Source: Algoriphagus sanaruensis | GTDB taxonomy: Bacteria > Bacteroidota > Bacteroidia > Cytophagales > Cyclobacteriaceae | Reading direction: 5' to 3' | Assembly (NCBI RefSeq): GCF_001593605.1 | Contig: NZ_CP012836.1 | Location: 3,538,501 to 3,602,500 of the forward strand | DNA length: 64,000 nucleotides | Notes under the pieces: model-generated | Seen by the model: only the letters and a program-made list of their open reading frames with translations | Told to the model about the DNA's origin: nothing | The model's database searches: none | Shown: one piece after another, positions 19,253 through 41,269 of the stretch | Layout: each line of letters opens with the position of its first letter | Numbering within the stretch: the first letter of the stretch is position 1 | Program-made: the position numbers and the translations under genes

Positions 19253-19452
19253 CCGTCAAAGGAGTCAATCACCCGATTGGGGAAAGTAAGGAATTTACTT
19301 TCCCCTTCTTTTTTTGATAAAAACTGAACGCCTAAAACGATCAATACACTTATAATCACTCCTAAAATCCCTTTTTGATAATTCAATAGCGTGATTTTTT
19401 TCAACTGTTTCTTAAAAAGGCAACTCTTTGAAAAACAGCTATCAAGCGACAT
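19249..19452 (-). CDS. possible 67-residue small membrane protein
   Basis: This short minus-strand frame has one clear hydrophobic helix (GILGVIISVLIVLGVQFL) between a Cys- and Lys-rich N-terminus (SLDSCFSKSCLFKKQLKK) and a charged tail. Its stop overlaps the end of the lipoprotein gene by 4 bp in convergent orientation. No promoter box was found and no homologue is known to me. It may be real or may be chance; codon use is compatible with the genome. Confidence 0.35.
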   Translation of the reverse strand: MSLDSCFSKSCLFKKQLKKITLLNYQKGILGVIISVLIVLGVQFLSKKEGESKFLTFPNRVIDSFDG

Positions 19453-19682: not shown

Positions 19683-20477
19683 ATGAATAGATTGCTTCAT
19701 GCCCTATTCGTATGGTCCATGGTAGTAACCGTGGTCGTGGTAACTGCATACCTTTTTTACACGGGTTATGACTACTATTCTCTGCCGGTTGAAGAGCGCT
19801 TTTATCATGAACATTACGATTGGTTTAAGCCTTCTGGAGCATTTGGTCATGGATTGGGCATAGTTGGCACTCTCCTAGTCACCATTGGAGTAATCCTCTA
19901 CATCGCAAGAAAACAATATGGATTTTTGGAGCGGTGGGTGAGAATCAAATACATGCTGGAGTTTCACATCTTCCTCTGCACGCTTGGCCCCATCCTGATC
20001 CTTTTCCATACTACGTTTAAGTTTAACGGAATCGTCAGCATCTCCTTTTGGAGCATGGTAGTGGTCGTACTTAGCGGAGTGGTGGGACGATTTATATACA
20101 TCCGAATCCCTAGAAGTGAGTCGGGCAAGGAACTGGAATTTGTGGAAGTTGAAAATCTTCATAAAAATCTCCAGCTCGAGTTACAAAAATCCGGGCTGCT
20201 GCAACTAAGCCAAAGTAATGCCTTGGAGTTTTCAGGCCTACGAACCATTCGGAAAACCATTCGAACCTCCTCTTTGGAAAAAGTAGAACAAAACAGGATT
20301 TGGAATCTTGCCAAGCAAGAGTACCTCATTCAGCGTCGACTCAAAAATCTCGATCTGATGAAAAAACTCTTCGAATACTGGCATGTAGCCCACCGTCCTT
20401 TCGCCCTAATCATGTTTGTCATCCTTGTAGTCCACGTGATTGCGACCCTAGCCCTTGGTTACCGATGGATTTTCTGA
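19683..20477 (+). CDS. b-type-haem-like integral membrane protein, first gene of cytochrome operon
   Basis: This is a 264-residue inner-membrane protein with about five helices. Candidate axial ligands are His56, His95 and His109 in neighbouring helices (EFHIFLCTLGPILILFHTTF) and His234, His237 and His251 near the C-terminus (WHVAHRPF ... VVHVIATL). The 13-14-residue spacing of intramembrane His pairs is typical of di-haem cytochromes b. A charged cytoplasmic loop (about 140-225) separates the helices. It overlaps the ferredoxin-flavoprotein gene by 13 bp. It may pass electrons from that protein, or from quinol, to the periplasmic multiheme cytochromes. No family name was recognised. Confidence 0.7.
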   Translation: MNRLLHALFVWSMVVTVVVVTAYLFYTGYDYYSLPVEERFYHEHYDWFKPSGAFGHGLGIVGTLLVTIGVILYIARKQYGFLERWVRIKYMLEFHIFLCTLGPILILFHTTFKFNGIVSISFWSMVVVVLSGVVGRFIYIRIPRSESGKELEFVEVENLHKNLQLELQKSGLLQLSQSNALEFSGLRTIRKTIRTSSLEKVEQNRIWNLAKQEYLIQRRLKNLDLMKKLFEYWHVAHRPFALIMFVILVVHVIATLALGYRWIF

Positions 20478-21832
20478 TCGATCTATTATTAGAGACTTGG
20501 TTTATTTATACCGTCACCTTCCTGATTTGCTTCGGGCTGGTGTTTTTTTATATGGTCCATGAGAAAAATAAATCCAAAGAAATCCAGAAGAAAATAGAGG
20601 AGGCAAAAGAACTTGGCCGATTTGAGCCGATTTCACTTCATCCCTTTATTGATCTCGACTCTTGCATAGGAAGTGGCGCTTGTGTTAGAGCCTGCCCTGA
20701 AGAAGATGTAATTGGTGTAGTCAATGGAAAGGCCAGTGTCATCAATGCGACCAGTTGCATTGGTCATGGGGCCTGCTTCCACGCATGCCCGGTAGAGGCT
20801 ATTTCGCTTCGAATAGGCACAGAAACCCGAGGAGTAGATTTACCTCATATTCAGCCCAATTATGAAACGAATATCCCCGGAATATTTATTGCTGGAGAAT
20901 TGGGAGGCATGGGCTTGATCAAAAACAGCATTGAGCAGGGTGTACAGGCGATCAATTACCTTTCTGAAAAACGACTTCCTTCCACTCCAGGTAGATTAGA
21001 TCTTATTATCGTAGGCGCTGGGCCTGCAGGTATCGGAGCGGGACTAAATGCGCTGCAACGAGGATTGACCTTTGAAATCCTCGAACAAGATTCTCTGGGA
21101 GGCACGGTCTTTACTTTTCCTCGGGAGAAAGTCATCATGACCCGCCCGGTGGATTTACCGATTTACGGGAAGGTGAAATTCTTCAATACTTCCAAACAAG
21201 AAGTGCTGACCTTCTGGAAAACCTTAATCAAAGATCATCAGATCACCGTTAGGGAACACACCAAGGTAGAATCCATCCTTCCATTACCCGAAGGCGGATT
21301 TAGAATCAAAGCTGCAAACGGAGAGGAATTTGAAGCCAATCAAATCTTACTTGCTTTGGGTCGAAGAGGTACTCCTAGAAAACTGAACATTCCAGGGGAA
21401 GATTTACCAAAGGTTTTTTATAGACTCCTCGAACCTGAACATTTTCAAAACATGGATATTCTGGTCGTAGGAGGTGGAGATTCTGCTGTGGAATCAGCCA
21501 TGCTTCTCATGGATACCAATCGAGTGACCCTTTCCTATCGAAGTGAAAAGTTTGCCCGTATCAAGCCACAAAACCAAAAAAATCTGGAAAATGCGATCGA
21601 AAAAGGAAAACTCCAGGTGATCCTGAATTCTGAAGCCCGAGAAATTAAAGAAAAGTCGGTCCTTCTCTGGAAAAAAGACCAAAATACGCAAGAAACAATA
21701 CCAAATGATCGGGTATTTATCTTCGCTGGAGGGGAACTTCCGCTTCCTTTCCTGAAAAACATCGGCATTAATGTCGAGAAAAAGTTTGGCAAAGTAGTCC
21801 GGGTTCATAAAAGCAAATCCAAGAAATCATGA
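20465..21832 (+). CDS. membrane-anchored dicluster ferredoxin/NAD(P)-flavoprotein reductase
   Basis: The start chosen is ATG 20465 (MDFLIDLLLETWFIYT), which overlaps the upstream stop; a longer frame reading back to 20300 lies inside the neighbour and is not credible. A single TM helix (FIYTVTFLICFGLVFFYMVH) is followed by two ferredoxin motifs (CIGSGACVRACP and CIGHGACFHACP) and a thioredoxin-reductase-like fold: FAD site IVGAGPAGIGAG and NAD(P) site VVGGGDSAVESA. The reductase-type CxxC is absent. The second Cys of each CxxCxxCxxxCP motif is replaced, by Ser in the first and His in the second. It is the likely electron entry point from NAD(P)H to the cytochrome operon. Confidence 0.8.
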   Translation: MDFLIDLLLETWFIYTVTFLICFGLVFFYMVHEKNKSKEIQKKIEEAKELGRFEPISLHPFIDLDSCIGSGACVRACPEEDVIGVVNGKASVINATSCIGHGACFHACPVEAISLRIGTETRGVDLPHIQPNYETNIPGIFIAGELGGMGLIKNSIEQGVQAINYLSEKRLPSTPGRLDLIIVGAGPAGIGAGLNALQRGLTFEILEQDSLGGTVFTFPREKVIMTRPVDLPIYGKVKFFNTSKQEVLTFWKTLIKDHQITVREHTKVESILPLPEGGFRIKAANGEEFEANQILLALGRRGTPRKLNIPGEDLPKVFYRLLEPEHFQNMDILVVGGGDSAVESAMLLMDTNRVTLSYRSEKFARIKPQNQKNLENAIEKGKLQVILNSEAREIKEKSVLLWKKDQNTQETIPNDRVFIFAGGELPLPFLKNIGINVEKKFGKVVRVHKSKSKKS

Positions 21833-23430
21833 CAAAGGCCTGGCTCTTTCTTTCATTGCTTTTTTGGACTTCCATTTCATGGGCCCAGTTGTCTCCTGGT
21901 GATTTATCCAAAGGTCACAGCAAATGGGAAGGCATGAAAAATTGTACCCAATGCCACACCATCGGTGAAAAAATTTCCGATCAAAAATGTCTGGATTGCC
22001 ACAAGGAAATCAAAACCCTAATTGATCAAGATCGAGGATACCATGCTTCGAAAGAAGTAGCGCAAAAAACCTGCGTGGATTGTCACAGTGAGCATCACGG
22101 ACTGAACTTTGACTTAGATCGATTTGATCAAAAGAAATTCAACCACAACCTCAGCGGCTTCGAACTAGAGGGCGCGCACGTTCAAGTGGATTGTCGGGAT
22201 TGTCACAAGCCCGACCTAATCAAAAGCCCTGAAATCAAAAAATTAGAAGGTACCTTTTTGGGGATGGGTATTACCTGTTTGGATTGTCATGACGACTACC
22301 ATCAAAACACCCTAGATAAAAATTGCACGGAATGTCATAATCAAAACGACTGGGCTCCTGCTGATTTATTTGATCATAATCAGGCTGATTTTAAACTGAA
22401 AGGTGCTCACGTCGAGGTTGATTGCAAAGATTGCCATCAGGAAACTACCCGAAACGGCAAACCATTTCAGGAATTTTCAGGAATCAAATTCGCCAATTGT
22501 GTGGATTGCCACGAGGATGTGCACGAAGGGAATTTGGGAAATTCTTGTACCGAATGCCACACCGAATCGAGTTGGAACCGTCTAAAGCAAGGCAATAAAT
22601 TTGACCACAACCTCACCTCCTTTCCGCTAGAGGGGCTTCATGTACAAGTAGACTGTAAAGAATGTCATACTTCGGGAAATTATACCCGAAATCTGAAGCA
22701 CCAAAAATGCATGGATTGTCATAAAGACTATCACGAAGGAGATTTTGCGGATACTAGTCCGGTCCCAGATTGCAACAGTTGCCATACCCTTACTGAGCCA
22801 TTTACTTACACCACCTACGGACTAGACGAACACCAAAATTCCTCATTTCCTTTAATGGGAAGTCATGAAGCCACTCCTTGTTTCTCCTGTCACATCAGTG
22901 AAGACAAATGGGAATTTGCAGACTTGGGAACTTCCTGCGTCGATTGTCATGAAAACATCCACCAGGAATTTATCTCGGAGAAATTTTATCCCAATCAAAA
23001 CTGCCTGAGCTGCCATTCGGAAAACAGTTGGAGCGAAGTAAAATTTGATCATGCACAGACTGCCTATCCCTTAGAAAAGGCGCATGAGGACGTTTCTTGT
23101 AAATCCTGCCATATCCAAGGAGACAGTTTCAATTCAAACTACAGTAATCAAAAATTCTCTGGCCTGAGTCAAAATTGTGTGGATTGCCATACCAATCCCC
23201 ATGGCAATCAATTTGGACTTCCTGAATCAGTGGATTGTACAAGTTGTCATACCCTTCTTCCAGGTTGGGATGCGGGCAATTTTGATCACGCCAACACCCA
23301 GTTCCCATTAGAAGGAAAACATATTGAAGTAGACTGTGCGTCTTGCCACACACCTACCCAAGTACCGAATCAGCCAGAACAGATCTTGTATAAAATCAAA
23401 AAATTCGAATGCAGAGACTGTCATTCTTAA
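21829..23430 (+). CDS. 20-heme c-type multiheme cytochrome
   Basis: This 533-residue exported protein has a signal peptide (SLLFWTSISWAQ) and 20 CxxCH motifs. Its repeating style is FDHN-x-FxLxGAHVxVDCxDCH followed by CVDCHEDVHEG then CTECHxxxxW, as in cytochrome c3-type families. The start overlaps the previous stop by 4 bp. It has no lipobox and no membrane anchor, so it is soluble in the periplasm or exported. It could carry electrons from the inner-membrane pair to later cytochromes. Its haem-binding sequences are unlike the repeats of the 13- and 61-heme proteins. Confidence 0.9.
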   Translation: MTKAWLFLSLLFWTSISWAQLSPGDLSKGHSKWEGMKNCTQCHTIGEKISDQKCLDCHKEIKTLIDQDRGYHASKEVAQKTCVDCHSEHHGLNFDLDRFDQKKFNHNLSGFELEGAHVQVDCRDCHKPDLIKSPEIKKLEGTFLGMGITCLDCHDDYHQNTLDKNCTECHNQNDWAPADLFDHNQADFKLKGAHVEVDCKDCHQETTRNGKPFQEFSGIKFANCVDCHEDVHEGNLGNSCTECHTESSWNRLKQGNKFDHNLTSFPLEGLHVQVDCKECHTSGNYTRNLKHQKCMDCHKDYHEGDFADTSPVPDCNSCHTLTEPFTYTTYGLDEHQNSSFPLMGSHEATPCFSCHISEDKWEFADLGTSCVDCHENIHQEFISEKFYPNQNCLSCHSENSWSEVKFDHAQTAYPLEKAHEDVSCKSCHIQGDSFNSNYSNQKFSGLSQNCVDCHTNPHGNQFGLPESVDCTSCHTLLPGWDAGNFDHANTQFPLEGKHIEVDCASCHTPTQVPNQPEQILYKIKKFECRDCHS

Positions 23431-24431
23431 TATTGACTCAACTCTTGGTGAGTTTTTCGGTGTGGGCTCAAAGCCCTCACGGGGAAAACCTCGTCCAAGA
23501 CTGCAAATCCTGCCATTCGGCAGGGAGTTGGGGATATGCAGAAAAAGCAGGATTTGATCACGAAAAGACAGGATTTACTTTGGATGGAAGGCACGAGGAG
23601 TTGACCTGCGTGGACTGCCATTCTACCTTGATTTTTGAGGAAGCAAAATCGAATTGCATTTCATGTCACTTGGACGTGCACACAGGTTCGGTCGGAAATG
23701 ACTGCCTCCGTTGCCATGACACCGAAAACTGGCTGGTCGACGAAATCCCGGAACTCCATGAGCAAAATGGATTCCCGCTACTCGGACAACATCAATTGGC
23801 AGATTGCGCGTCCTGCCATGTCTCAGAAACCAACCTTCAATGGAATCGATTAGGAGCAGATTGTGTCAATTGCCATTTACCCGATTACCAAAGCACAAAC
23901 AGCCCAAATCACCAATCCGCTGGATTTTCACTTTCCTGCTCGGATTGTCATGACATTCAAGCGAGAAGCTGGGCGGGTTCAGAAAATTTCCATCAGTTTT
24001 TCCCATTGACAGGGGGGCACTCGGTCGCGGATTGTTTTGCTTGCCATCAAGGATCCGATTACAAAGGATTGTCAACTGATTGTATCTCCTGCCATATCGA
24101 TGACTTTAATGCCACCCAAGATCCCAATCACAAACAATCGGGATTTTCCACGGATTGCACGCTTTGTCATACCACAGAGGCATGGTCCCCTGCCGGATTC
24201 CGAGACCATGATGCGGAGTTTTTCCCAATCTATTCGGGAACTCACCGAGGAGAATGGAATTCCTGTGTAGAATGTCATACTACACCTGGAAGTTACAAAT
24301 CATTCAGCTGCATCGACTGTCATGAACACAGCAATCGAACTGCAGTCACGCGAGAACATGATGAGGTTCGAAACTTCCAGTATGAAAGTAATGCCTGCTA
24401 TGCCTGTCACCCTAATGGAAAAGAAGACTAA
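23409..24431 (+). CDS. 13-heme c-type multiheme cytochrome
   Basis: This 340-residue protein has a signal peptide (LTQLLVSFSVWAQ) and 13 CxxCH motifs. The start codon lies 22 bp inside the preceding gene, which supports translational coupling; this start gives a proper signal peptide. The N-terminal seven and C-terminal three haem sites, and one central triheme unit (FFPLTGGHSVADCFACH ... CISCH ... CTLCHTTEAW), align with those of the 61-heme protein further down the operon. It is the unexpanded paralogue of that protein. Confidence 0.9.
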   Translation: MQRLSFLILTQLLVSFSVWAQSPHGENLVQDCKSCHSAGSWGYAEKAGFDHEKTGFTLDGRHEELTCVDCHSTLIFEEAKSNCISCHLDVHTGSVGNDCLRCHDTENWLVDEIPELHEQNGFPLLGQHQLADCASCHVSETNLQWNRLGADCVNCHLPDYQSTNSPNHQSAGFSLSCSDCHDIQARSWAGSENFHQFFPLTGGHSVADCFACHQGSDYKGLSTDCISCHIDDFNATQDPNHKQSGFSTDCTLCHTTEAWSPAGFRDHDAEFFPIYSGTHRGEWNSCVECHTTPGSYKSFSCIDCHEHSNRTAVTREHDEVRNFQYESNACYACHPNGKED

Positions 24432-24437
24432 GCCACT

Positions 24438-26039
24438 ATGAAAAAACTGATCCTACTTCTGTTCTTGTTTTTTGGATGGGTGCTGACCGGAAAAGCGCAG
24501 CAATCTTCTGCCGTCATGGATTCCATTCAAGGAAAGGTTACCTTTTTAACTTCTGATAATATTTACCTGAATTTTGATCAAACCGACCGAATTCAAGTCG
24601 GAGACACCCTATACCGAGTACAAAATCAAAGTAAAATCGCAGTTCTGGTGTTGTATCGAAAATCCTCTGTTTCGGTCATCGCAAAACCAATTCCAGGAAA
24701 CACCTTTAAAGTGGGAGATCCAATTTTGGCTTTGGTTCCAAAGCCAATTGAAAAGAAGGAAGAAAAACCAAGTCCCGCTCCAACGCCCGTCCCACGAAAA
24801 TCAACTGCTAAAGTGGCTCCGAAAGTGGAGAAAAAGGAAGAAACCTTGAGGGGCACTGTCGCTGTAAATAATTATTCAAGTTTGACCGAAGGAGATTTTA
24901 GCTCTAGATCTGTCGCTAGAATCAGCGCACATGCGGATGATATTAATGGCTCCGGTCTTTCCTTCAGAACCTATGCCCGCTACCGACAAAATAGAATTGA
25001 TCGAAATGCTCAACAGGATGTTTTTGGGAAATTCTTTTTGTATGAATTCGCCTTGGATTATAATGTAGAAGATCAATTTACTATCACCGCAGGAAGATTT
25101 ATCAATCGAAACATGGTTTCTGTCGGTGCGATGGACGGACTAAAATTGGAGAAAAACGGAAGAATTGGCTTTGGAGGTGTCGTAGCAGGATTTAGACCTG
25201 ACCCAGTTTCATTCGGACTCAATACCGATTTACTCCAATTTGGTGCTTATGCCGGATTGTATCATAATAAATCCCACAGCGCATTTACAAGTGTGGGTTT
25301 TATGGAGCAGACCAATAAAAGATTGACGGATAGACGCTACTTATACATGCAGCATCAAAGTAATTTATCCGAAAAGGTAAGTCTTTTTGCAAGTTCTGAA
25401 ATGGACCTTTACCAGAAAGATTCCAGCGGATTGGGTGGAATGTCTACCCGACTTTCCAATTTATTCCTCACCGCTAATTACCGATTTTCATCAGCCTTCA
25501 ATGTCTCAGCATCCTACGATGTCCGTAGAAACTTTATTCTCTATGAGTCTTTTGCAGAGGAACTAGATCGATTGCTTCGGGATGATCCTTATCGAACAGG
25601 ACTTCGATTGCGAGCCAATTACCGATTGAGCAAATATGTCCGCTGGGGAGTAGCTATGAGCCGTCGGCTTCAAAGCGACAAAAAGAATGAATATTCTCAA
25701 ATCAGCTCAACGCTTCAGTTTACCAAAATCCCCGGCATCCAAGGAAACTTGATGCTGATGGGCTCGCTCAACAAAAATGCCTTTCTCAGCTATCAATCCT
25801 TTTTGGTACGCTACTCCAAAGATTTTTGGAAAGGAAGAATCACCCTTGCTCCGTATGGTAGATACCTGAATTACAGTTATTTTAATACTGAAACTCCAGA
25901 TACTTGGCAAGTATATGCCGGGATGGATACCAACTTAGATATTACCAATCGATTGTCGCTTCGGCTGCTTTACGATTACTCCACTCGAAATTCCACGATT
26001 ACCCATCGATTTAACATCAACCTCACCCAGCGGTTTTAA
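24438..26039 (+). CDS. outer-membrane beta-barrel of the cytochrome operon
   Basis: This 533-residue protein has a signal peptide (FFGWVLTGKAQ). An N-terminal domain of about 120 residues ends in a Pro/Lys-rich linker (EKPSPAPTPVPRKS). A beta-barrel with many alternating strands follows and ends in an aromatic C-terminal residue (HRFNINLTQRF), typical of Bam substrates. It sits between the 13-heme cytochrome and the OB-fold lipoprotein, and in the porin-cytochrome systems of other bacteria a barrel holds cytochromes through the outer membrane. That role here is inferred from context; no MtrB/PioB homology can be claimed. No CxxC is present at the N-terminus, unlike MtrB. Confidence 0.8.
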   Translation: MKKLILLLFLFFGWVLTGKAQQSSAVMDSIQGKVTFLTSDNIYLNFDQTDRIQVGDTLYRVQNQSKIAVLVLYRKSSVSVIAKPIPGNTFKVGDPILALVPKPIEKKEEKPSPAPTPVPRKSTAKVAPKVEKKEETLRGTVAVNNYSSLTEGDFSSRSVARISAHADDINGSGLSFRTYARYRQNRIDRNAQQDVFGKFFLYEFALDYNVEDQFTITAGRFINRNMVSVGAMDGLKLEKNGRIGFGGVVAGFRPDPVSFGLNTDLLQFGAYAGLYHNKSHSAFTSVGFMEQTNKRLTDRRYLYMQHQSNLSEKVSLFASSEMDLYQKDSSGLGGMSTRLSNLFLTANYRFSSAFNVSASYDVRRNFILYESFAEELDRLLRDDPYRTGLRLRANYRLSKYVRWGVAMSRRLQSDKKNEYSQISSTLQFTKIPGIQGNLMLMGSLNKNAFLSYQSFLVRYSKDFWKGRITLAPYGRYLNYSYFNTETPDTWQVYAGMDTNLDITNRLSLRLLYDYSTRNSTITHRFNINLTQRF

Positions 26040-26040
26040 T

Positions 26041-26802
26041 ATGAAGTACCTCAGCACGTTTTCTAAACTACTCCTTATTGGCCTTGTGGCTGGAATTTTT
26101 GCCTGCTCCAATGCAAAAAAAATAGAACCTATTTTACCTTCAGAGGAAGGGGACACCTTTACTTTGGTTAATCCTGAATCTTCCGAAGATCCTAATGTGG
26201 CAGACCCAAATGCTTGGCATGAAGCCATCATCAAGGAGGTTTTGGCTTCCAACCGGTACTCTTATCTTGAAGTAGAAGAAAATGGAACTCGGATTTGGTT
26301 GGCTACCTCCAAAGGAGAATTTTCCCCCGAACAACGGCTTCGCTACCGAGGAGGATTGCTAAAAACAAACTTCAAAAGCGAGGAGCATGATCGTGTTTTT
26401 GATAAGCTTTATTTGGTTTCACAAATTCAGGTTCAAGGTCCTTCTACTACTACTACAAGCCCTGAAGCCTCTAGCCCTGGACCTGCAAAAAAGGTAGATC
26501 CGTCTACGGTCAAAGGAGCAACCACCATCAAGGAAATCATTCAAAACCCAGGAAAATACAAAGACCAAACCGTGAAAATCTTGGGAACGGTGACCAAGGT
26601 CAATCCCAACATTATGGGTAAAAACTGGATCCATGTTCAGGATGGATCTGCTGACCAATACGATTTTGTACTTACTTCCGCATCGAATATTCCAGCTGGA
26701 CATCAGGTAGTTTTTGAAGGTATTATTCGTCTGGATGTGGATTTTGGAGCAGGATACAGTTATGATATCATTATGGAGGACGCCAAATTTTCCCTACAAT
26801 GA
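26041..26802 (+). CDS. NrfJ-like OB-fold lipoprotein
   Basis: This 253-residue protein has lipobox IFAC (Cys22). Two OB-fold-like domains follow. The first (about residues 60-130, VLASNRYSYLEVEENGTRIW and then DKLYLVSQIQV) resembles the NrfJ family, found with cytochrome c nitrite reductase and cytochrome c maturation genes. The second (WIHVQDGSADQYDF) looks like a tOB/BOF domain. A Ser/Thr/Pro linker joins them. It is probably a helper for cytochrome assembly or a bound cofactor; the direct role is unknown. It starts 1 bp after the barrel gene. Confidence 0.7.
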   Translation: MKYLSTFSKLLLIGLVAGIFACSNAKKIEPILPSEEGDTFTLVNPESSEDPNVADPNAWHEAIIKEVLASNRYSYLEVEENGTRIWLATSKGEFSPEQRLRYRGGLLKTNFKSEEHDRVFDKLYLVSQIQVQGPSTTTTSPEASSPGPAKKVDPSTVKGATTIKEIIQNPGKYKDQTVKILGTVTKVNPNIMGKNWIHVQDGSADQYDFVLTSASNIPAGHQVVFEGIIRLDVDFGAGYSYDIIMEDAKFSLQ

Positions 26803-29800
26803 GCCGACTAAAATCCACTCTTCATCGGATTGACCAAGTATTGTTCGGAACTCGGGCTGCCGGGCTCTATTTACTTTTATTTGCTGCAGCTATTGGAGTT
26901 GCCACATTCATCGAAAATGATTTTGGGACCTCCGCTGCTCAAAAATTCATCTATCGGGCCACATGGTTTGAGCTACTCCTAGTTCTATTCTCAGGAACCC
27001 TTATTTCGAATGTAATTCGCTACCGAATGGTGGCACAGAAAAAGTGGGCGCAATTGATTTTTCACCTTTCCATGATTTTGATTCTTATTGGAGCAGGTCT
27101 CACGCGCTATTTGGGTTACGAGGGAGTAATGCATATCCGGGAAGGAGCCGCCTCCAATTTTATTTATTCCAATGAGCCTTACCTCAATTTTGAAGCGAGT
27201 CTGGCAGGACAGACATTCAAATTCGAAGAACCCATTTTGGTGTCCTCTTTAGGTAAAAATGACTTTGAACAAGAATTTCTCTTGGGGAACAAACCTGTAA
27301 AAGTCAAACTCCTTTCCATGATTCCTAATCCAAAACAGGAAGTGGAAGTGGTAGATGATGGTGTTCCCGTCTTAAATGTGGTTTTTGGTAGTAGCTCCGG
27401 GCGAATGGAGTATTACCTCGAATTTGGTTCAAAACAAACCATCAACGGGGTTAACTTCAACTTTTCGGACGAGTTGATTCCCGGCGCGTTCAATCTTTTT
27501 TTCCAGGAAAACACGCTCTATTGGTCTGCTGATCAAGCAGTCAGTGAACGAGTAATGGCTACTCAAGCCTTTTCAAATTTTGAGGCTAATACGCAAAATC
27601 CGCTTCAGTTTAGAGCACTTTACAATACAGGCTCTGGCCAATTTGTATTTGGAGGGCTGATTGAAAAAGGGAGGCTAACCGTGATTTCTGAGAAGCAAAA
27701 GATTGACCGTAGCAGCTTGCTTGGTCTTGAACTGGAAGTGACCCTTGGCAATGAAACAAAAAACCAAACCATTTACGGTTCTCCCGGGCAACCAGGAAGA
27801 CCCGCCTATTTCCAGTCAGATGACTTGGTTTTGGCGATTTCCTATGGAGCCAAAGAGGTAAACTTGCCATTTAGCTTGTTCCTAAGGGATTTTGAAATGG
27901 AGCGCTATCCCGGCACAAACAGCCCTGCCTCCTATGCCAGTGAAGTTACCCTTGTCGACAACCGAAACGGCACCAACCAAGAATACCGAATATTCATGAA
28001 TAACATTCTGGATTACGATGGCTACCGGTTTTTCCAGTCTTCTTACGATGGAGACGAGTTGGGTACTTACTTGAGTGTAAACCATGATTTCTGGGGCACT
28101 AATGTGACTTATTTGGGCTACGCCTTGTTGACGATAGGCATGGTGATGGTCTTCTTTTTTGGAAATACCCGTTTCAAAAATTTATCTGAAAAACTTCGCC
28201 AGCTTAAAGGAGCCTCTATTTTGGTTTTGGCATTTTCCCTTTCCACCTCTTCTTATGGACAAGTGGAGCTCATGCCCCAAGTGCCACAAATTGATGCAGG
28301 TCATGCGCAAGTTTTTTCAGGAGTCATTGTTCAGGATTTCCGTGGACGAATGAAGCCCCTGAATACCCTAAGTAAGGAAATGCTTCGAAAAGTGAGTGGA
28401 TCAGAGACTTGGAATGGAATGAATTCTGACCAAGTTCTGCTTTCGATGTATATCCAAAGTCGGGAATGGTACAGCGTTCCTTTGGTGAAATTAGGAAAGC
28501 ATGAGCGACTCAACTTATTGCTCGGCGTTGCTGAAGGTCAAAAGGCTGCCTACCGAGACTTCTTTGAAAAAGACGGGACCTACAAACTCAAAGACCTGAT
28601 CCTTCAAGTAAACAATCAGAATCCTGCAGACCGCGGAGTATTTGAAAAGGAAATCATTAAAGTCGATGAACGGGTCAATATCATGAATCTGATCTTTTCA
28701 GGCCGTTTTTTACGAATTTTTCCAGTTGCTAATGACCCAAACAATTCATGGCTGGCACCAAATAGTGTAAATCAAAATCAACCTGAAGCCTCCCGCTTTT
28801 TCAATGCCTATAACCAGGCGCTGGAAGAAGGAATTCAGTCAGGAAATTACACTCAGGCCAGTGGATTATTGGAAGGGCTCAAGCTCGTTCAGCGGCAAGT
28901 AAGTGAAGATTTAATCCCAAGCGAAGGCCAAGTTTCAGCCGAGCTCCTGCTGAATGACCTACAAATTTTCAGATTTCTGGCCTTGGCAAATACCTTATTG
29001 GGATTATCCTTTTTGGCAATTCTTTTTCTATCTGTTTTCCAACCTAACTGGAAATTGGATAAGGTTCTTTGGTTTCTATTTGGCGTCACCTTCTTATCAT
29101 TTCTTTACCATACCCTAGGATTAGGTCTTCGTTGGTATGTATCGGAAAGAGCTCCTTGGTCCAATGGCTATGAATCCATGATTTACATTGCTTGGACATC
29201 TACTTTGGCGGGCTTACTCTTTTCTCGAAAATCACCCGGGGGAATGGCCGCAACCATGATCCTTTCCGGAACCGTGCTGCTAATCGCATGGCTGAGTTAC
29301 TTAGATCCGGAAATCACTCCTTTAGTGCCTGTTTTAAAATCGTATTGGTTGACCATTCACGTCAGTCTTGAGGCTGGAAGCTATGGATTCTTGATGCTTG
29401 GAGCGATTATGGGATTGATCAACCTCTTGTTGATGCTCTTTAGTACGCCTTCCAGTTTGACCAAATCCAAACGAATCATCAATGAACTTTCTCTTTTAAG
29501 CGAAATGACACTCACTGGAGGTTTGGTGATGCTTTCTGTTGGAACTTATTTGGGAGGAGTTTGGGCCAATGAATCTTGGGGAAGGTATTGGGGCTGGGAT
29601 GCAAAAGAAACTTGGGCGCTGGTTTCTATTTTGGTTTATGCCTTCATCCTCCACATGCGACTTATTCCTGGATTACGAGGGGTTTATGCCTACAATGTTG
29701 CTACCTTGTTTGGGCTTTCGTCCGTGGTGATGACTTATTTTGGGGTGAACTACTATTTATCCGGTCTTCATTCCTATGCCGCTGGTGATCCAGTTCCGAT

Positions 29801-29909
29801 TCCAAACTGGGTGTATTACTCCGTCATTTCCCTGATTTTAATCAGCTTAGGAGCTTTTGTGAAATATAAAAAGTACTTTCAAAAGAAGTCCGATGCCAAA
29901 CCTATCTAA
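26799..29909 (+). CDS. CcsBA system II cytochrome c haem lyase (ResB-ResC fusion)
   Basis: This 1036-residue fusion has an N-terminal CcsB/ResB domain (about 1-450: four helices and a large periplasmic domain) and a C-terminal CcsA/ResC domain (about 700-1030). The WWD haem-handling motif is clear: WGRYWGWDAKETWAL near 927-941, flanked by the conserved histidines (HVSLEAGSYG, HMRLIPGLRG, LHSYAAGD). It attaches haem to CxxCH motifs on the periplasmic side. Its presence inside the operon, just before the 61-heme gene, suggests a lyase dedicated to the very large haem load. Its start overlaps the previous stop (ATGA). Length fits other fused CcsBA proteins. Confidence 0.92.
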   Translation: MSRLKSTLHRIDQVLFGTRAAGLYLLLFAAAIGVATFIENDFGTSAAQKFIYRATWFELLLVLFSGTLISNVIRYRMVAQKKWAQLIFHLSMILILIGAGLTRYLGYEGVMHIREGAASNFIYSNEPYLNFEASLAGQTFKFEEPILVSSLGKNDFEQEFLLGNKPVKVKLLSMIPNPKQEVEVVDDGVPVLNVVFGSSSGRMEYYLEFGSKQTINGVNFNFSDELIPGAFNLFFQENTLYWSADQAVSERVMATQAFSNFEANTQNPLQFRALYNTGSGQFVFGGLIEKGRLTVISEKQKIDRSSLLGLELEVTLGNETKNQTIYGSPGQPGRPAYFQSDDLVLAISYGAKEVNLPFSLFLRDFEMERYPGTNSPASYASEVTLVDNRNGTNQEYRIFMNNILDYDGYRFFQSSYDGDELGTYLSVNHDFWGTNVTYLGYALLTIGMVMVFFFGNTRFKNLSEKLRQLKGASILVLAFSLSTSSYGQVELMPQVPQIDAGHAQVFSGVIVQDFRGRMKPLNTLSKEMLRKVSGSETWNGMNSDQVLLSMYIQSREWYSVPLVKLGKHERLNLLLGVAEGQKAAYRDFFEKDGTYKLKDLILQVNNQNPADRGVFEKEIIKVDERVNIMNLIFSGRFLRIFPVANDPNNSWLAPNSVNQNQPEASRFFNAYNQALEEGIQSGNYTQASGLLEGLKLVQRQVSEDLIPSEGQVSAELLLNDLQIFRFLALANTLLGLSFLAILFLSVFQPNWKLDKVLWFLFGVTFLSFLYHTLGLGLRWYVSERAPWSNGYESMIYIAWTSTLAGLLFSRKSPGGMAATMILSGTVLLIAWLSYLDPEITPLVPVLKSYWLTIHVSLEAGSYGFLMLGAIMGLINLLLMLFSTPSSLTKSKRIINELSLLSEMTLTGGLVMLSVGTYLGGVWANESWGRYWGWDAKETWALVSILVYAFILHMRLIPGLRGVYAYNVATLFGLSSVVMTYFGVNYYLSGLHSYAAGDPVPIPNWVYYSVISLILISLGAFVKYKKYFQKKSDAKPI

Positions 29910-29937
29910 GTAAGTTTATCCAGCTTGCAATCAACCC

Positions 29938-32900
29938 ATGAAGCATCTCCTACTCTTCGGTCTTTTGGTTCTCATTTCCATAACTGGATTTGCGCAAAAT
30001 CCCCATGGAAAGAAATTTTCCATTGACTGTAAGGAGTGTCATACAGTAGGAGATTGGTCATTTAAGTCGATAGAAAATGGGTTTTCACATGATTCTGACA
30101 CTGATTTTCTATTAAAAGGAAGTCATTCAACGGTTACTTGTACAGACTGTCACCAAACCTTAGATTTTAAGGTTGAAAACCCTGCCTGCGTTTCCTGCCA
30201 TCAAGATGTTCACCTAAATTCTGTAGGCTCCGATTGTGCTCGATGCCATAATGAAACTGCTTGGCAAACTTTGGATATCCAAAATATCCATGAGCAGAAT
30301 GGATTTCCCTTGGTCGGCCAGCATCAAGCTATTTCTTGTGAAAATTGCCATGTTTCGGACAATAACCTTCGCTGGGATCGAATTGGAAATGATTGTATTT
30401 CCTGCCATCAAACAGATTTTTTAGAAACCGAAAATCCAAACCATGGAGAGGCGGGCTTCTCTACGAATTGCATTGAATGCCATCAAGATTCTGATATCAC
30501 CTGGGGAACTGGAGATTTTCATCATGAATTCCCGCTAACCGGTGCCCACGCGATCAATGATTGCGCGGCTTGTCATGATACCAACAACTTTGCAGCGGCT
30601 TCCCCGGATTGTATTTCCTGCCACCAGCCGGATTACAACGGAGCGAAAAATCCAGATCACCAGGCCTTAGGTTTCTCTCAGGATTGTTCGACTTGCCATA
30701 CCACAGAGTCTTGGGATGGAGCCCAATTCCCAGATCATGATTTCTTCCCACTAACTGGCGGACACGCGATCAATGATTGCGCGGCTTGTCATGATACCAA
30801 CAACTTTGCGGCAGCTTCCCCCGATTGTATTTCCTGCCACCAGCCCGATTACAACGGAGCCAAAAATCCAGATCACCAAGCACTCGGATTTAGTACGGAT
30901 TGTGCGACTTGTCATACCACCGAGTCTTGGGATGGAGCTCAGTTCCCGGATCATGATTTCTTCCCATTAACAGGTGGTCACGCGATCAATGACTGCGCAG
31001 CTTGTCATGACGTGAACAACTTTGCAGCTGCATCCCCCGATTGTATTTCCTGCCACCAGCCGGATTACAATGGAGCGAAAAATCCAGATCACCAAGCTTT
31101 AGGTTTCTCTCAGGATTGCGCGACTTGTCATACTACCGAGTCTTGGGATGGAGCTCAGTTCCCGGATCATGATTTCTTCCCTCTCACAGGTGGACACGCG
31201 ATCAACGATTGCGCGGCTTGTCATGACGTGAACAACTTTGCGGCGGCTTCCCCAGATTGTATCTCCTGCCACCAGCCGGATTACAACGGAGCAAAAAATC
31301 CTGATCACCAGGCCCTCGGATTTAGTACGGATTGCGCGACTTGTCATACTACCGAATCTTGGGATGGAGCTCAGTTCCCGGATCATGATTTCTTCCCGCT
31401 CACAGGCGGACACGCGATCAATGATTGCGCGGCTTGTCATGACGTGAACAACTTTGCAGCGGCTTCCCCGGATTGTATTTCCTGCCACCAGCCGGATTAC
31501 AATGGAGCAAAAAATCCTGATCACCAAGCGCTAGGATTTAGTACGGATTGTGCGACTTGTCATACCACCGAATCTTGGGATGGAGCTCAGTTCCCGGATC
31601 ATGATTTCTTCCCACTCACAGGCGGACACGCGATCAACGATTGCGCGGCTTGTCATGATACCAACAACTTCGCTGCGGCTTCACCGGATTGTATTTCCTG
31701 CCACCAGCCGGATTATAACGGAGCAAAAAATCCAGATCACCAGGCCCTCGGATTTAGTACGGATTGCGCGACTTGTCATACTACCGAATCTTGGGATGGA
31801 GCTCAGTTCCCGGATCATGATTTCTTCCCTCTCACAGGCGGACACGCGATCAATGATTGCGCGGCCTGTCATGATACCAACAACTTCGCTGCGGCTTCCC
31901 CGGATTGTATTTCCTGCCACCAGCCGGATTACAATGGAGTCAAAAATCCTGATCACCAAGCGCTAGGATTTAGTACGGATTGTGCGACTTGTCATACCAC
32001 CGAATCTTGGGATGGAGCTCAGTTCCCGGATCATGATTTCTTCCCACTCACAGGCGGACACGCAATCAACGATTGCGCAGCTTGTCATGATACCAACAAC
32101 TTTGCGGCGGCTTCCCCGGATTGTATTTCCTGCCACCAGCCGGATTACAACGGAGCCAAAAATCCAGATCATCAAGCTTTAGGTTTCTCTCAGGATTGTG
32201 CGACTTGTCATACTACTGAATCCTGGGATGGAGCGCAATTCCCAGATCATGATTTCTTCCCTCTCACAGGCGGACACGCGATCAACGATTGCGCGGCTTG
32301 TCATGATGTGAACAACTTTGCAGCGGCTTCACCGGATTGTATTTCCTGTCACCAGCCGGATTACAACGGAGCCAAAAATCCTGATCACCAAGCTTTAGGT
32401 TTCTCTCAGGATTGTGCGACTTGCCATACTACCGAGTCTTGGGATGGAGCGCAATTCCCGGATCATGATTTCTTCCCTCTCACAGGTGGACACGCGATCA
32501 ACGATTGCGCGGCTTGTCATGACGTGAACAACTTTGCGGCGGCTTCCCCAGATTGTATTTCTTGTCACCAGCCGGATTACAACGGAGCAAAAAATCCAGA
32601 TCACCAAGCGCTCGGATTTAGTACGGATTGCGCTACTTGTCATACCACCGAATCATGGGATGGAGCGCAATTCTCGGATCATGATTTCTTCCCATTAACA
32701 GGTGGTCACGCGATCAATGATTGCGCGGCTTGTCATGATACCAACAACTTTGCGGCGGCTTCACCGGATTGTATTTCCTGCCACCAGCCGGATTACAACG
32801 GAGCGAAAAATCCAGATCACCAGGCCTTAGGTTTCTCTCAGGATTGTGCGACTTGCCATACTACCGAATCCTGGGATGGAGCTCAATTCCCAGATCATGA

Positions 32901-34413
32901 TTTCTTCCCGTTGACTGGTGGACATGCGATCAATGATTGCGCGGCTTGTCATGATACCAACAACTTTGCGGCGGCTTCCCCGGATTGTATTTCCTGCCAC
33001 CAGCCGGATTATAACGGAGCCAAAAATCCAGATCACCAAGCCTTAGGTTTCTCTCAGGATTGCGCGACTTGTCATACGACCGAATCTTGGGATGGAGCCC
33101 AATTCCCGGATCATGATTTCTTCCCTCTAACAGGCGGACACGCAATCAATGATTGCGCGGCTTGTCATGACGTGAACAACTTTGCAGCGGCTTCACCGGA
33201 TTGTATTTCCTGCCACCAGCCGGATTACAGCGGAGCAAAAAATCCAGATCACCAAGCTTTAGGTTTCTCTCAGGATTGCGCGTCTTGTCATACCACCGAA
33301 TCATGGGATGGAGCTCAGTTCCCGGATCATGATTTCTTCCCTCTCACAGGCGGACACGCGATCAATGACTGCGCAGCTTGTCATGACGTGAACAACTTTG
33401 CAGCGGCTTCCCCGGATTGTATTTCCTGCCACCAGCCGGATTACAACGGAGCCAAAAATCCAGATCACCAAGCCTTAGGTTTCTCTCAGGATTGCGCGAC
33501 TTGTCATACCACCGAATCATGGGATGGAGCTCAGTTCCCGGATCATGATTTCTTCCCTCTCACAGGTGGACACGCGATCAATGATTGCGCGGCTTGTCAT
33601 GATACCAACAACTTCGCAGCGGCTTCCCCGGATTGTATTTCCTGCCACCAGCCGGATTACAGCGGAGCCAAAAATCCAGATCACCAAGCGCTCGGATTTA
33701 GTACGGATTGTGCGACTTGTCATACCACCGAATCTTGGGATGGAGCACAATTCCCGGATCATGATTTCTTCCCACTCACAGGCGGACACGCGATCAATGA
33801 TTGCGCAGCTTGTCATGACGTGAACAACTTTGCAGCGGCTTCACCGGATTGTATTTCCTGCCACCAGCCGGATTACAGCGGAGCAAAAAATCCAGATCAC
33901 CAAGCTTTAGGTTTCTCTCAGGATTGCGCGTCTTGTCATACCACCGAATCATGGGATGGAGCTCAGTTCCCGGATCATGATTTCTTCCCTCTCACAGGCG
34001 GACACGCGATCAATGATTGCGCAGCTTGTCATGACGTGAACAACTTTGCAGCTGCATCCCCGGATTGTATTTCCTGCCACCAAAGCGACTATAACGCAAC
34101 TCGATCACCCAATCACCAGACTTCGGGCTTTAATACGGAATGTATATTGTGTCACTATACCAATGCTTGGAAACCTGCAGACTTCCGGGAACATGACGCC
34201 CTTTACTTCCCTATTTATTCTGGAAGACATCGAAACGAATGGGACTCATGTGTCGAATGCCATACCAACACTGGATCTTATGCAAGTTTCAGTTGTATAG
34301 ATTGCCATGAGCACAGCAATCAATCTAAGGTCACCAGAGACCATCAAGGAGTTAGAAACTTCGTCTACCAAAGTGCAGCATGCTTTGAATGTCATCCTGA
34401 TGGCAGAAACTAA
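29938..34413 (+). CDS. giant 61-heme c-type cytochrome built of 17 triheme modules
   Basis: This 1491-residue exported protein has a signal peptide (VLISITGFAQ) and 61 CxxCH motifs: 7 in an N-terminal region, 51 in seventeen 72-residue modules (CAACH, CISCH, then CATCH or CASCH) and 3 in a C-terminal cap (CVECH, CIDCH, CFECH). Each full module also has three other His (PDHDFF, GGHAIN, NPDHQA), giving one free His per haem. Ends and module match the 13-heme protein at 23409-24431, which has just one module (13 + 16 x 3 = 61). The first module differs slightly (HHEFPLTGAHAIN) and the last diverges (CHQSDYNATRS). No lipobox or anchor is visible. It starts 28 bp after ccsBA, in the same operon. 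Likely a long haem wire. Confidence 0.93.
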   Translation: MKHLLLFGLLVLISITGFAQNPHGKKFSIDCKECHTVGDWSFKSIENGFSHDSDTDFLLKGSHSTVTCTDCHQTLDFKVENPACVSCHQDVHLNSVGSDCARCHNETAWQTLDIQNIHEQNGFPLVGQHQAISCENCHVSDNNLRWDRIGNDCISCHQTDFLETENPNHGEAGFSTNCIECHQDSDITWGTGDFHHEFPLTGAHAINDCAACHDTNNFAAASPDCISCHQPDYNGAKNPDHQALGFSQDCSTCHTTESWDGAQFPDHDFFPLTGGHAINDCAACHDTNNFAAASPDCISCHQPDYNGAKNPDHQALGFSTDCATCHTTESWDGAQFPDHDFFPLTGGHAINDCAACHDVNNFAAASPDCISCHQPDYNGAKNPDHQALGFSQDCATCHTTESWDGAQFPDHDFFPLTGGHAINDCAACHDVNNFAAASPDCISCHQPDYNGAKNPDHQALGFSTDCATCHTTESWDGAQFPDHDFFPLTGGHAINDCAACHDVNNFAAASPDCISCHQPDYNGAKNPDHQALGFSTDCATCHTTESWDGAQFPDHDFFPLTGGHAINDCAACHDTNNFAAASPDCISCHQPDYNGAKNPDHQALGFSTDCATCHTTESWDGAQFPDHDFFPLTGGHAINDCAACHDTNNFAAASPDCISCHQPDYNGVKNPDHQALGFSTDCATCHTTESWDGAQFPDHDFFPLTGGHAINDCAACHDTNNFAAASPDCISCHQPDYNGAKNPDHQALGFSQDCATCHTTESWDGAQFPDHDFFPLTGGHAINDCAACHDVNNFAAASPDCISCHQPDYNGAKNPDHQALGFSQDCATCHTTESWDGAQFPDHDFFPLTGGHAINDCAACHDVNNFAAASPDCISCHQPDYNGAKNPDHQALGFSTDCATCHTTESWDGAQFSDHDFFPLTGGHAINDCAACHDTNNFAAASPDCISCHQPDYNGAKNPDHQALGFSQDCATCHTTESWDGAQFPDHDFFPLTGGHAINDCAACHDTNNFAAASPDCISCHQPDYNGAKNPDHQALGFSQDCATCHTTESWDGAQFPDHDFFPLTGGHAINDCAACHDVNNFAAASPDCISCHQPDYSGAKNPDHQALGFSQDCASCHTTESWDGAQFPDHDFFPLTGGHAINDCAACHDVNNFAAASPDCISCHQPDYNGAKNPDHQALGFSQDCATCHTTESWDGAQFPDHDFFPLTGGHAINDCAACHDTNNFAAASPDCISCHQPDYSGAKNPDHQALGFSTDCATCHTTESWDGAQFPDHDFFPLTGGHAINDCAACHDVNNFAAASPDCISCHQPDYSGAKNPDHQALGFSQDCASCHTTESWDGAQFPDHDFFPLTGGHAINDCAACHDVNNFAAASPDCISCHQSDYNATRSPNHQTSGFNTECILCHYTNAWKPADFREHDALYFPIYSGRHRNEWDSCVECHTNTGSYASFSCIDCHEHSNQSKVTRDHQGVRNFVYQSAACFECHPDGRN
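30520..34155 (+). repeat. tandem array of 216-bp units (17 periods) encoding triheme modules
   Basis: The period is exactly 216 bp. The HAINDC codons start at 30547 in unit 1 and 34003 in unit 17 (16 x 216 = 3456), so no indel has accumulated. Units differ mainly by synonymous changes and by three coding markers: DTNNF or DVNNF, STDC or SQDC, YNG or YSG. A stretch of about 190 bp around 33224 recurs 648 bp (three units) later with almost no change, a sign of recent multi-unit duplication. Confidence 0.95.
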
Positions 34414-35467: not shown

Positions 35468-35923
35468 ATGGAAACATACAATCTTCACATCAATGGCAAA
35501 AAACAGGAGGTAACTGCCCCTGAAGACATGCCTTTGCTTTGGGTTCTTCGAGACCTCCTGCAATTAAAAGGAACCAAATTTGGATGTGGTCAAGCCCTTT
35601 GCGGTGCATGCACGGTTCATTTGGATGATATTGCTGTTCGATCCTGCAGCCTTCCTATTTCAGAAGTAGGAAATGGAAAAATTACAACGATCGAAGGCCT
35701 TTCCAAAGAAGGGACTCACCCACTCCAAGAAGCTTGGGTGGAGAATGTTGTTCCTCAATGTGGGTATTGCCAAGGTGGACAAATCATGTCTGCAGCAGCT
35801 TTGCTCAAGCAAAATCCAAGTCCGACAGAGGAAGAAATCGAATCTGTAATGCAAGGCAATCTTTGCAGATGCGGCACCTACAATCGAATCAAAGAAGCCA
35901 TCCTTACCGCATCTAAACACTAA
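35468..35923 (+). CDS. molybdenum hydroxylase [2Fe-2S] subunit (IorA-type)
   Basis: This 151-residue protein binds two [2Fe-2S] clusters: plant-type [15 protein letters not shown], then CGYCQGGQ and [11 protein letters not shown]. This is the small subunit of the xanthine dehydrogenase family, IorA type. It lies 11 bp upstream of the molybdopterin subunit. No FAD (CoxM-type) subunit gene is present, so electrons probably leave to a cytochrome or other acceptor instead of NAD+. Confidence 0.92.
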
Positions 35924-35934
35924 TCCGATAGCTT

Positions 35935-39808: not shown

Positions 39809-41269
39809 TTACCAGGACCCTATTTCTGAATCCATCCAAGCACTTCGTTGATTGATATAATCCTTCAGAGAAATGATAATTCCATCATAATCAACTCCTA
39901 GGCCCTTGTCCCATTTGGCATAATTTCGTTCTACGGCGCCATTGGTTCTCAGGTAACTGACTGCATCATCTACTACTTTTTGGAGACTAGCATTACTCCA
40001 GACATCCTTTCGAATGGCATTCCAACGAGTTTTCACCTGTTGACGAAATTGTGGATCAGCCAATAATTTGGGCCACCAAAAATGAATCATCCATGGATCA
40101 TTGGATACATAGTTATTGTAATTCATGACCCAACCATCCATTGGAATTCTTCCTCCCTCATCAAATGCGAGATTCATATCCCAAACTGGCCCCATTTCAA
40201 GTTTACCATCCCGATTTTTTACCAAATAGGTACTGAGACGATAGGCATCCACATTTCGAGTTAGTTCATTGACCAGAAAATAATCTACAAATGTGCTTAC
40301 CTCAATGTAATCTGTGTAAGTCCGCAAATCCGAAGAAAAATCATCAGCAAGGAGTGCTGCCTCAAACTCTTCGATGTAATTCGCGATGTAGTCCTTTTGA
40401 CTTGCGGTAATATCTTCAGCCTTGGGATATTCATACGTAAAGTAGGTTTCTAGAAACTGCTGAGGATGATAAGGAGCACTATAGGCTGGAAATGTGAGTC
40501 TATTCCCATTGATGTCATAATTACTCCTGAAACTGTTTTGAGCAGTATATCGAGCATCATCTTCCCAATTATTCATAAAGTATGAAATCGGCTTTCCATC
40601 ATGCTCAGGACCTGCATCGGCTTTGTCAATTTTTAAAATATAGCCCCCTGTGAGATTGGTCGAAGCTTCATTGAGCGATTTGATATCGATTCGATTGGAA
40701 TCTCTTTTCAATTTTTCCTGAAGGAGATAGACTCCCAAATATTCCCCGTTGACCTCGAGTTCTACAAATTTTCCTCGACTCGCATACTTTCCAATCATTC
40801 GGGAAAACTCGTAACCCACATGATTAAAGATCAAACTTCGATCCCAAGCATATTTTTCATTCAAATTGACCACATGACCAACAAATCTCCAGTCCTCCTC
40901 TGCAGGTAATCCCAACAGCTCAACGTCCACCCCTTCTCCAGTGCCATCCACCGTTTCAAAATTATATCCTTTCTTGTCAGAAAGCCGAAAAGATGTTTTC
41001 CCTCTAAACTCGATATTAATCCCTTGAGTGAGCTCTAATTTTTTCTTGTTGTAGATTTTCATTTCTGCCAATACTCCTGGCTCGTAAAGGATTTCCTTGC
41101 CCTTGGTATCGACTACGATATATGGAATTTGACTGTCTTTGGTATCAACTGCAAATACAACTCCGTCATCACCTTTGACAACAGGAGCAATTTCTGGATC
41201 CTTGCAGCCAAGAAGTAGCAACATCAGAACCCATCCAAACAGACTCCACTTTTCTAAAACTCGATTCAT
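39809..41269 (-). CDS. CotH-kinase-family lipoprotein
   Basis: This 486-residue protein has lipobox LLLLGC. The CotH kinase core is visible: IEFRGKTSFRLSDKKGYNFE, YLGVYLLQEKLKRDSNRIDI, GGYILKIDKAD, then GPVWDMNLAFDEGG, which holds the metal-binding Asp. CotH-fold proteins can phosphorylate proteins or polysaccharides; the substrate here is unknown. The stretch between its start and the next gene (41270-41613) is non-coding. Confidence 0.88.
   Translation of the reverse strand: MNRVLEKWSLFGWVLMLLLLGCKDPEIAPVVKGDDGVVFAVDTKDSQIPYIVVDTKGKEILYEPGVLAEMKIYNKKKLELTQGINIEFRGKTSFRLSDKKGYNFETVDGTGEGVDVELLGLPAEEDWRFVGHVVNLNEKYAWDRSLIFNHVGYEFSRMIGKYASRGKFVELEVNGEYLGVYLLQEKLKRDSNRIDIKSLNEASTNLTGGYILKIDKADAGPEHDGKPISYFMNNWEDDARYTAQNSFRSNYDINGNRLTFPAYSAPYHPQQFLETYFTYEYPKAEDITASQKDYIANYIEEFEAALLADDFSSDLRTYTDYIEVSTFVDYFLVNELTRNVDAYRLSTYLVKNRDGKLEMGPVWDMNLAFDEGGRIPMDGWVMNYNNYVSNDPWMIHFWWPKLLADPQFRQQVKTRWNAIRKDVWSNASLQKVVDDAVSYLRTNGAVERNYAKWDKGLGVDYDGIIISLKDYINQRSAWMDSEIGSW

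Follow-up and report, generated by a model that had tools for sequence, protein, structure and literature searches.

Among the described systems closest to the one reported here are the PCC3 gene clusters, which join a putative porin to periplasmic and extracellular multihaem cytochromes (medians of 21 and 34 haem-binding sites, maximum 85). They feature repeats, 22-39 residues per haem and an inner-membrane protein (IMP) with two WX3HX13H motifs and SGXXG, and the hosts named are Alpha-, Beta- and Gammaproteobacteria (PMC5566968). In the PCC3 clusters of Gallionellaceae the periplasmic cytochrome has 21, 24 or 27 haems and the extracellular one 10-35 (PMC10734462). Very long cytochromes are also on record: more than 100 motifs in proteins of Bacteroidota, many from Saprospiraceae, for which transfer or storage has been suggested, and 112 in an acidobacterial protein (PMC11495043); 113 haems in Methanoperedenaceae (PMC7082337); and up to 86 in ANME proteins (PMC9012536). 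Here we analyse 64,000 nucleotides of the bacteroidotal species Algoriphagus sanaruensis (contig NZ_CP012836.1, 3,538,501 to 3,602,500, forward strand; hereafter the window, in whose numbering coordinates are given). The window encodes a cytochrome with 61 CxxCH motifs, the last gene of an eight-gene set that resembles PCC3 clusters, recurs across Bacteroidota and varies chiefly in the length of this cytochrome and its paralogues.

The 61-haem protein, as we call it from its motif count, is encoded at 29938..34413 (+ strand, like all genes of the set) from an ATG start and comprises 1491 amino acids. Our recount agreed with the 7 + 17x3 + 3 arrangement of motifs reported in a first-pass annotation of this DNA: seven lie before residue 194, 51 in a modular array and three in the tail. 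All 122 cysteines fall within CxxCH, and 64 further histidines lie outside the motifs. The N-terminus (residues 1-20, 29938..29997, ending in AQ) looks like a signal peptide by eye, as the annotation had also held, and a Q-(S/N/T)PHG junction resembling that of this protein occurs in relatives. The head (29998..30516) is followed by 17 modules of 72 residues (residues 194-1417, 30517..34188) and the tail (34189..34410). Every one of the 17 modules places its CxxCH histidines at positions 20, 36 and 61 and non-motif histidines at positions 2, 11 and 48 (the first module has one extra), and these three are enough for bis-His ligation of the module's haems. Such density is foreign to chance: 1000 residue shuffles of the protein gave a mean of 0.8 CxxCH motifs and a maximum of five, and none of the 63 stop-to-stop open reading frames (ORFs) of at least 100 codons lying wholly outside 21829-34413 contains the motif. 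At 24.4 residues per haem site, the protein matches Pfam PF22113 (MtrC/MtrF-like outer-membrane cytochrome domains) at 121 bits (cut-off 30) and the NCBIfam family nanowire_3heme with a whole-protein score of 66.8 (cut-off 40), no single stretch passing alone. We infer that the sites are loaded with haem; fully loaded, the protein would have a mass of about 196 kDa (158.6 + 37.6).

A short counterpart of this protein is encoded in the same set. The first-pass annotation had not recognised the neighbouring gene at 23409..24431, by motif count and homology a 340-residue cytochrome with 13 CxxCH motifs (a head of seven, one module of three and a tail of three), as a one-module version of the long one. 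Residues 6-195 and 1311-1490 of the 61-haem protein are 48% and 61% identical to it, respectively, and since 13 is 7+3+3 and 61 is 7+17x3+3, both are built to one plan, with a single module or with 17. Thirteen non-motif histidines, one per haem, are invariant in all 31 aligned relatives of the 13-haem protein. The long gene probably arose from a duplicate of the 13-haem type whose module was then amplified; because the module of the 13-haem gene shares only 57-60% DNA identity with the array modules, this duplication does not look recent. With a third cytochrome of 20 motifs, the three proteins hold 94 haem sites (61 + 20 + 13), the total given by the first-pass annotation.

The eight genes at 19683-34413 form a tight operon, with successive intergenic gaps of -13, -4, -22, 6, 1, -4 and 28 bp and 100 bp to the next gene, and are probably read as a single transcript. 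A terminator-like hairpin precedes them at 19279..19305 (+; a 12-pair stem followed by a T run), a consensus match of a kind found 24 times in the scanned stretch against 18.5 expected. The first gene (19683..20477) encodes the IMP, 264 amino acids without a Pfam match and a probable di-haem b protein: a 40-row alignment shows H-x13-H twice plus SGxxG, with the consensus W-x3-H-x13-H at both sites, from which the window protein departs once, with M at the first site in place of the W that many relatives have. The second gene (20465..21832, a start we set in place of the TTG at 20300 of a mechanical ORF list) encodes a flavoprotein with an N-terminal membrane anchor seen by eye, a ferredoxin-like domain and two dinucleotide motifs (Pfam Pyr_redox_3 and Fer4). 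Among solved structures it is closest to YpdA and thioredoxin-reductase-like ferredoxin-NADP reductases, and in sequence it resembles NAD(P)H-using enzymes. The usual ferredoxin motif is C-x2-C-x2-C-x3-C. In the ferredoxin-like domain (residues 67-108) each motif has three cysteines, all six invariant in 67 rows. At the second usual position one motif has S or T and the other an invariant His, so a residue other than Cys may serve as ligand in the iron-sulphur clusters.

The 20-CxxCH cytochrome (21829..23430), whose length is nearly fixed among relatives and which probably spans the periplasm, passes the Pfam cut-off for MtrC/MtrF-like domains (35.5 bits) and partially matches the DmsE family (52 bits, cut-off 192). 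After the 13-haem gene comes a predicted outer-membrane beta-barrel (24438..26039) with no Pfam match. Its AlphaFold2 model, built from a 53-row alignment (pLDDT 87, pTM 0.67), has 22 strands across residues 136-532 and a small N-terminal beta domain, and its structural matches are outer-membrane porins and receptor barrels, with MtrB at Foldseek rank 25. A lipoprotein follows (26041..26802), with a weak GW-domain match (21.8 bits, cut-off 21) and a lipobox cysteine, Cys22 (assigned by eye), that at least 95% of 22 rows share. The gene before the long cytochrome (26799..29909) encodes CcsBA, the ResB-CcsA fusion of cytochrome c maturation System II, over the Pfam cut-off and at 173 bits against NCBIfam CcsB (cut-off 188). 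Two more Cytochrom_C_asm genes elsewhere in the host genome, CcmF/NrfE- and CcmC-like and under their NCBIfam cut-offs, make the operon's CcsBA look like an extra maturation system.

Scanning a genome collection with the 13-haem alignment and keeping the best 80 of 445 matches yielded 79 loci, a non-random set of near relatives. In 65 of them the genes for the IMP, the flavoprotein, the 20-haem type and the 13-haem type run in that order along one strand, and in 51 the barrel comes next. Counted gene by gene, with many contigs incomplete, the 20-haem type was found in 75 loci, the flavoprotein in 71, the IMP in 66, the barrel in 59, the lipoprotein in 42 and CcsBA in 29 (17 long and on the same strand, 12 short or on the opposite strand). 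In a separate phylum-wide draw, the IMP was detected at E <= 1e-20 in 40 of 395 genomes and 33 of 170 genera. These results show that the gene set recurs across Bacteroidota and is not rare. Our literature search, with most subscription papers and preprints outside its reach, found no description of the operon in Bacteroidota, which is weak evidence of absence, and the part of PMC9671151 available to us says nothing of one.

What differs between loci is length. Counting only ORFs clear of contig ends, 20-haem relatives (n = 72) have 20 CxxCH motifs in 37 cases, 23 in 34 and 26 in one, whereas relatives of the 13/61-haem type (n = 82) range from 12 to 94 and follow 10+3n (1 mod 3) in 76 cases. 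Length is therefore the variable in the latter type, and 61 is no record: at least 61 motifs occur in 13 of the 65 loci holding an intact relative, with a maximum of 94. Near relatives differ by whole modules (94 in L033 and 91 in L061, 88 in L096 and 82 in L101, 49 in L091 and 34 in L100), these six being metagenome-assembled genomes (MAGs) whose exact haem numbers may include assembly error. In one further locus (L093, 9992-17765) three cytochromes of this type, with 22, 39 and 18 motifs, stand together. A head-plus-tail tree of 86 rows indicated at least ten changes between the one-module state and that of at least 28 haems among 68 labelled rows. Paralogues from the same locus are sisters in five loci (L063, L041, L152, L154 and L052), so that duplication with growth has occurred more than once; L033, L061 and L038, however, hold short and long copies that fall in separate parts of the tree and look older. 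On this tree the 61-haem protein of the window sits on a long branch beside three 13-haem proteins of Algoriphagus (support 98/96).

The array itself is unusually even. TRF reports a 216-bp repeat at 30547-34082 with 16.4 copies and 90% identity, and modules 2-16 average 90% identity in DNA and 97% in protein, with non-synonymous divergence (dN) of 0.029, synonymous divergence (dS) of 0.51 and dN/dS of ~0.06, showing that the modules are under purifying selection. Of 36 arrays measured, this is the most uniform, the others having a mean inter-module protein identity of 40-90%. The first-pass view of the protein as unusual for Bacteroidota thus holds for its regularity and fails for its size; likewise, its count of seventeen modules stands, and its picture of them as uniform does not extend to the seventeenth, whose second half has diverged. 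Long minus-strand ORFs inside the array, such as 31099-31527, are probably a by-product of the repeat. A partial orthologue occurs in an Algoriphagus MAG (G694), whose contig ends inside the array; the 248 C-terminal residues that it encodes are 86% identical to those of the window protein. The single complete array module there has 88-94% protein identity and 76-82% DNA identity to window modules 1-16. Among themselves the window modules are closer in DNA (90%) than any is to this orthologue, which suggests later amplification or homogenisation. Near this array end lies a gene (L204, 5838-6755) that we take to be HipA-like.

An assembly artefact, which the first-pass annotation had named as a possible refutation, an annotation artefact or a decaying array that no longer binds haem is very improbable. 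Tandem repeats are difficult to assemble, and the longest exact repeat in the array, 209 bases, is one in which short reads could break. However, the genome was assembled as one contig, each of the 17 modules differs in DNA from every other (the closest pair shares 98%), the frame stays open across 1491 codons and the cysteines and histidines are retained in 17 of 17 modules. The orthologous array end in a second genome and the CcsBA gene within the operon argue in the same direction.

Horizontal acquisition is the best reading of how the operon is distributed. A match to the 61-haem protein (E <= 1e-20) was found in seven of 245 genomes drawn from the family, its own included. Sister genomes lack the operon within a conserved gene block. 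In G294 the genes for up204, an AmiA-like protein and [2Fe-2S] and molybdopterin subunits lie together and the operon is absent, leaving ~280 bp where the window carries up278 and the operon; in G274 and G286 the AmiA-like gene has an up278-like stretch ~120 bp away. The neighbours of the operon in Algoriphagus sp. K-2018 (G266, locus L029) and of the array end in G694 differ from those in the window. Emticicia oligotrophica DSM 17448 carries the gene set on a plasmid, pEMTOL02 (L190, 14899-27483), close to replication and ParA genes; there ccsA comes first, ahead of the IMP, the flavoprotein, cytochromes of 23 and 40 haems, the barrel and the GW protein. We found no repeats on either side of the window operon, in a search that did not extend to integrases.

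Set against the PCC3 description, the operon shares a barrel gene beside the cytochromes (here a 22-strand model). Its 20-haem cytochrome (20, 23 or 26 in relatives) would correspond by haem number to the periplasmic PCC3 cytochrome of ~21 haems, and its variable 61-haem type would correspond by haem number, repeats and ~25 residues per haem to the extracellular one. The split between a narrow count (20, 23 or 26) and a wide one (12-94) parallels that of the Gallionellaceae clusters. Its IMP carries the two HX13H motifs and SGXXG reported for PCC3 and PCC4 (PMC5566968); because the motif is common to the IMPs of both without overall homology, it marks a class and not descent. Methylophaga has an IMP homologue (27% identity, E 1e-6) next to a cytochrome with seven CxxCH motifs, in a stretch where no porin is annotated. 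The window operon differs from PCC3 in its host phylum, in the additional flavin/iron-sulphur protein, 13-haem paralogue, lipoprotein and CcsBA, and in 22 strands as against up to 42 reported.

MtrCAB, MtoAB and DmsE systems likewise combine a barrel with multihaem cytochromes, but their partners are decahaem and no cytochrome has grown by repeats; the barrel's match to MtrB is a general one, ranking behind ushers and porins. OmcS, OmcE and OmcZ are head-to-tail polymers of subunits; here 61 haem sites lie in one chain. The best match of the 13-haem family among profiles of solved structures is a 16-haem cytochrome, 1z1n (E 1.5e-8, best stretch 202-255), and is only module-sized. We take 1z1n to be HmcA, which works with other partners. 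GSU1996 of Geobacter, a nanowire-of-haems cytochrome, is, like the array, a chain of triheme domains in one polypeptide; its structure, 3ov0 (PMC10138318), is matched weakly by the 13-haem profile (E 0.013). Each of its domains has one His-Met haem (PMC10138318), whereas the three distal histidines in each module here speak for bis-His ligation throughout, and GSU1996 and GSU2210 have 12-27 haems and are described as periplasmic. The very long Bacteroidota cytochromes of PMC11495043 are, by description, probably of the same family as the 61-haem protein; the part of that paper we draw on gives counts and a suggested role, with no operon, module or ladder.

We consider it probable that the operon encodes a PCC3-like porin-cytochrome conduit with outward flow, in which the 61-haem protein is the outermost wire. 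In such a conduit NAD(P)H would reduce the flavin/iron-sulphur protein, the two b haems of the IMP would take electrons over the inner membrane and the 20-haem cytochrome would carry them through the periplasm. The 22-stranded barrel and the 13-haem cytochrome would jointly pass them across the outer membrane, and the 61-haem protein would lead them to an external acceptor, its number of 3-haem modules determining how far it reaches and how much charge it can take up. We read the surface location, the outward direction, the acceptor and the order of steps from gene content and homology, and the surface location is the weakest link. Operon context strengthens the first-pass proposal of a very long haem wire, which is still the likeliest reading, although a protein of this size is not exceptional for Bacteroidota. 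Several observations weigh against it. By eye we saw no lipobox at the N-terminus of the 61-haem protein, and a Pfam scan of it found no secretion-tail family, so it might stay periplasmic. The structure model of the 13-haem protein is poor (pLDDT 61, pTM 0.39) and unusable for wire geometry, and the likeness to PCC3 was drawn from published layout and motifs. The usual second cysteine is absent from both ferredoxin-like motifs, leaving the cluster type uncertain. Finally, the IMP occurs in only two of 72 Algoriphagus genomes, making the operon accessory in the genus, and G266 has the 13-haem gene and lacks the long paralogue.

The missing export signal would suit a periplasmic store, a capacitor that buffers electrons in the envelope when acceptors are short, as proposed for GSU1996, which is described as periplasmic and capacitor-like (PMC10138318); the activated-sludge study PMC11495043 offers the same role. 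We think this unlikely, since a barrel gene belongs to the operon and recurs in 59 of the 79 loci. Stretched like OmcS, moreover, 61 haems would extend ~49 nm, and the periplasm is usually narrower. (OmcS rises 48 Å per six-haem subunit; PMC6584659.) Wire and store are not mutually exclusive. Slightly less likely still is an inward conduit in which Fe(II), Mn(II) or other outside donors feed the respiratory chain or NAD(P)+. For PCC3, electrons have been proposed to pass from a donor outside the cell into the quinone pool (PMC5566968), and two COX1-type oxidases in the genome, which fit the aerobic host presumed in the first-pass annotation, are possible sinks. The flavoprotein, by its likeness to NAD(P)H-using enzymes, suits a cytosolic reductant instead, though it is no proof of direction. 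About 9 kb from a COX1 gene, a 421-amino-acid frame with two Cytochrome_C7-like matches (G000:C1:3508258-3508644; L208, L209) is perhaps part of an alternative complex III.

Elsewhere in the window, xanthine-dehydrogenase-like [2Fe-2S] and molybdopterin-binding subunits follow directly after the operon (35468-38223) and, being 83-87% identical in the operon-less G294, are probably unrelated to it. A 1066-amino-acid ORF at 4399-7599 contains a 21-bp tandem repeat (6454-6518), and a CotH kinase-like protein (Pfam CotH) is encoded at 39809-41269.

Beyond the outward conduit itself, we tentatively propose, as possible but less likely than not, that the operon is a self-contained, horizontally moving electron-export cassette of Bacteroidota, driven by cytosolic NAD(P)H and equipped with its own CcsBA for haem ligation. 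Wire length would then be an evolutionary dial: a bis-His triheme module would gain and lose copies often and fast, with a range of 13 to 94 haems and differences among close relatives too, and the membrane-spanning parts would stay fixed. In the present analysis an isolated giant cytochrome becomes one of a family with a built-in length series, in which a fixed inner and a variable outer partner predict an envelope-spanning part and an outward-reaching part. The 10+3n ladder provides natural variants in which to study the dependence of conduction and charge storage on haem number, and the related loci include cultured isolates; culturable operon carriers are Draconibacterium sediminis (L089), Maribellus luteus (L077), Luteirhabdus pelagi (L046) and Emticicia oligotrophica (L190). 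The modular series of lengths and an operon found across the phylum are of greater interest than the count of 61 as such. By the phylum-wide sample, roughly a tenth of the genomes drawn (40 of 395) may have the capacity for extracellular electron transfer.

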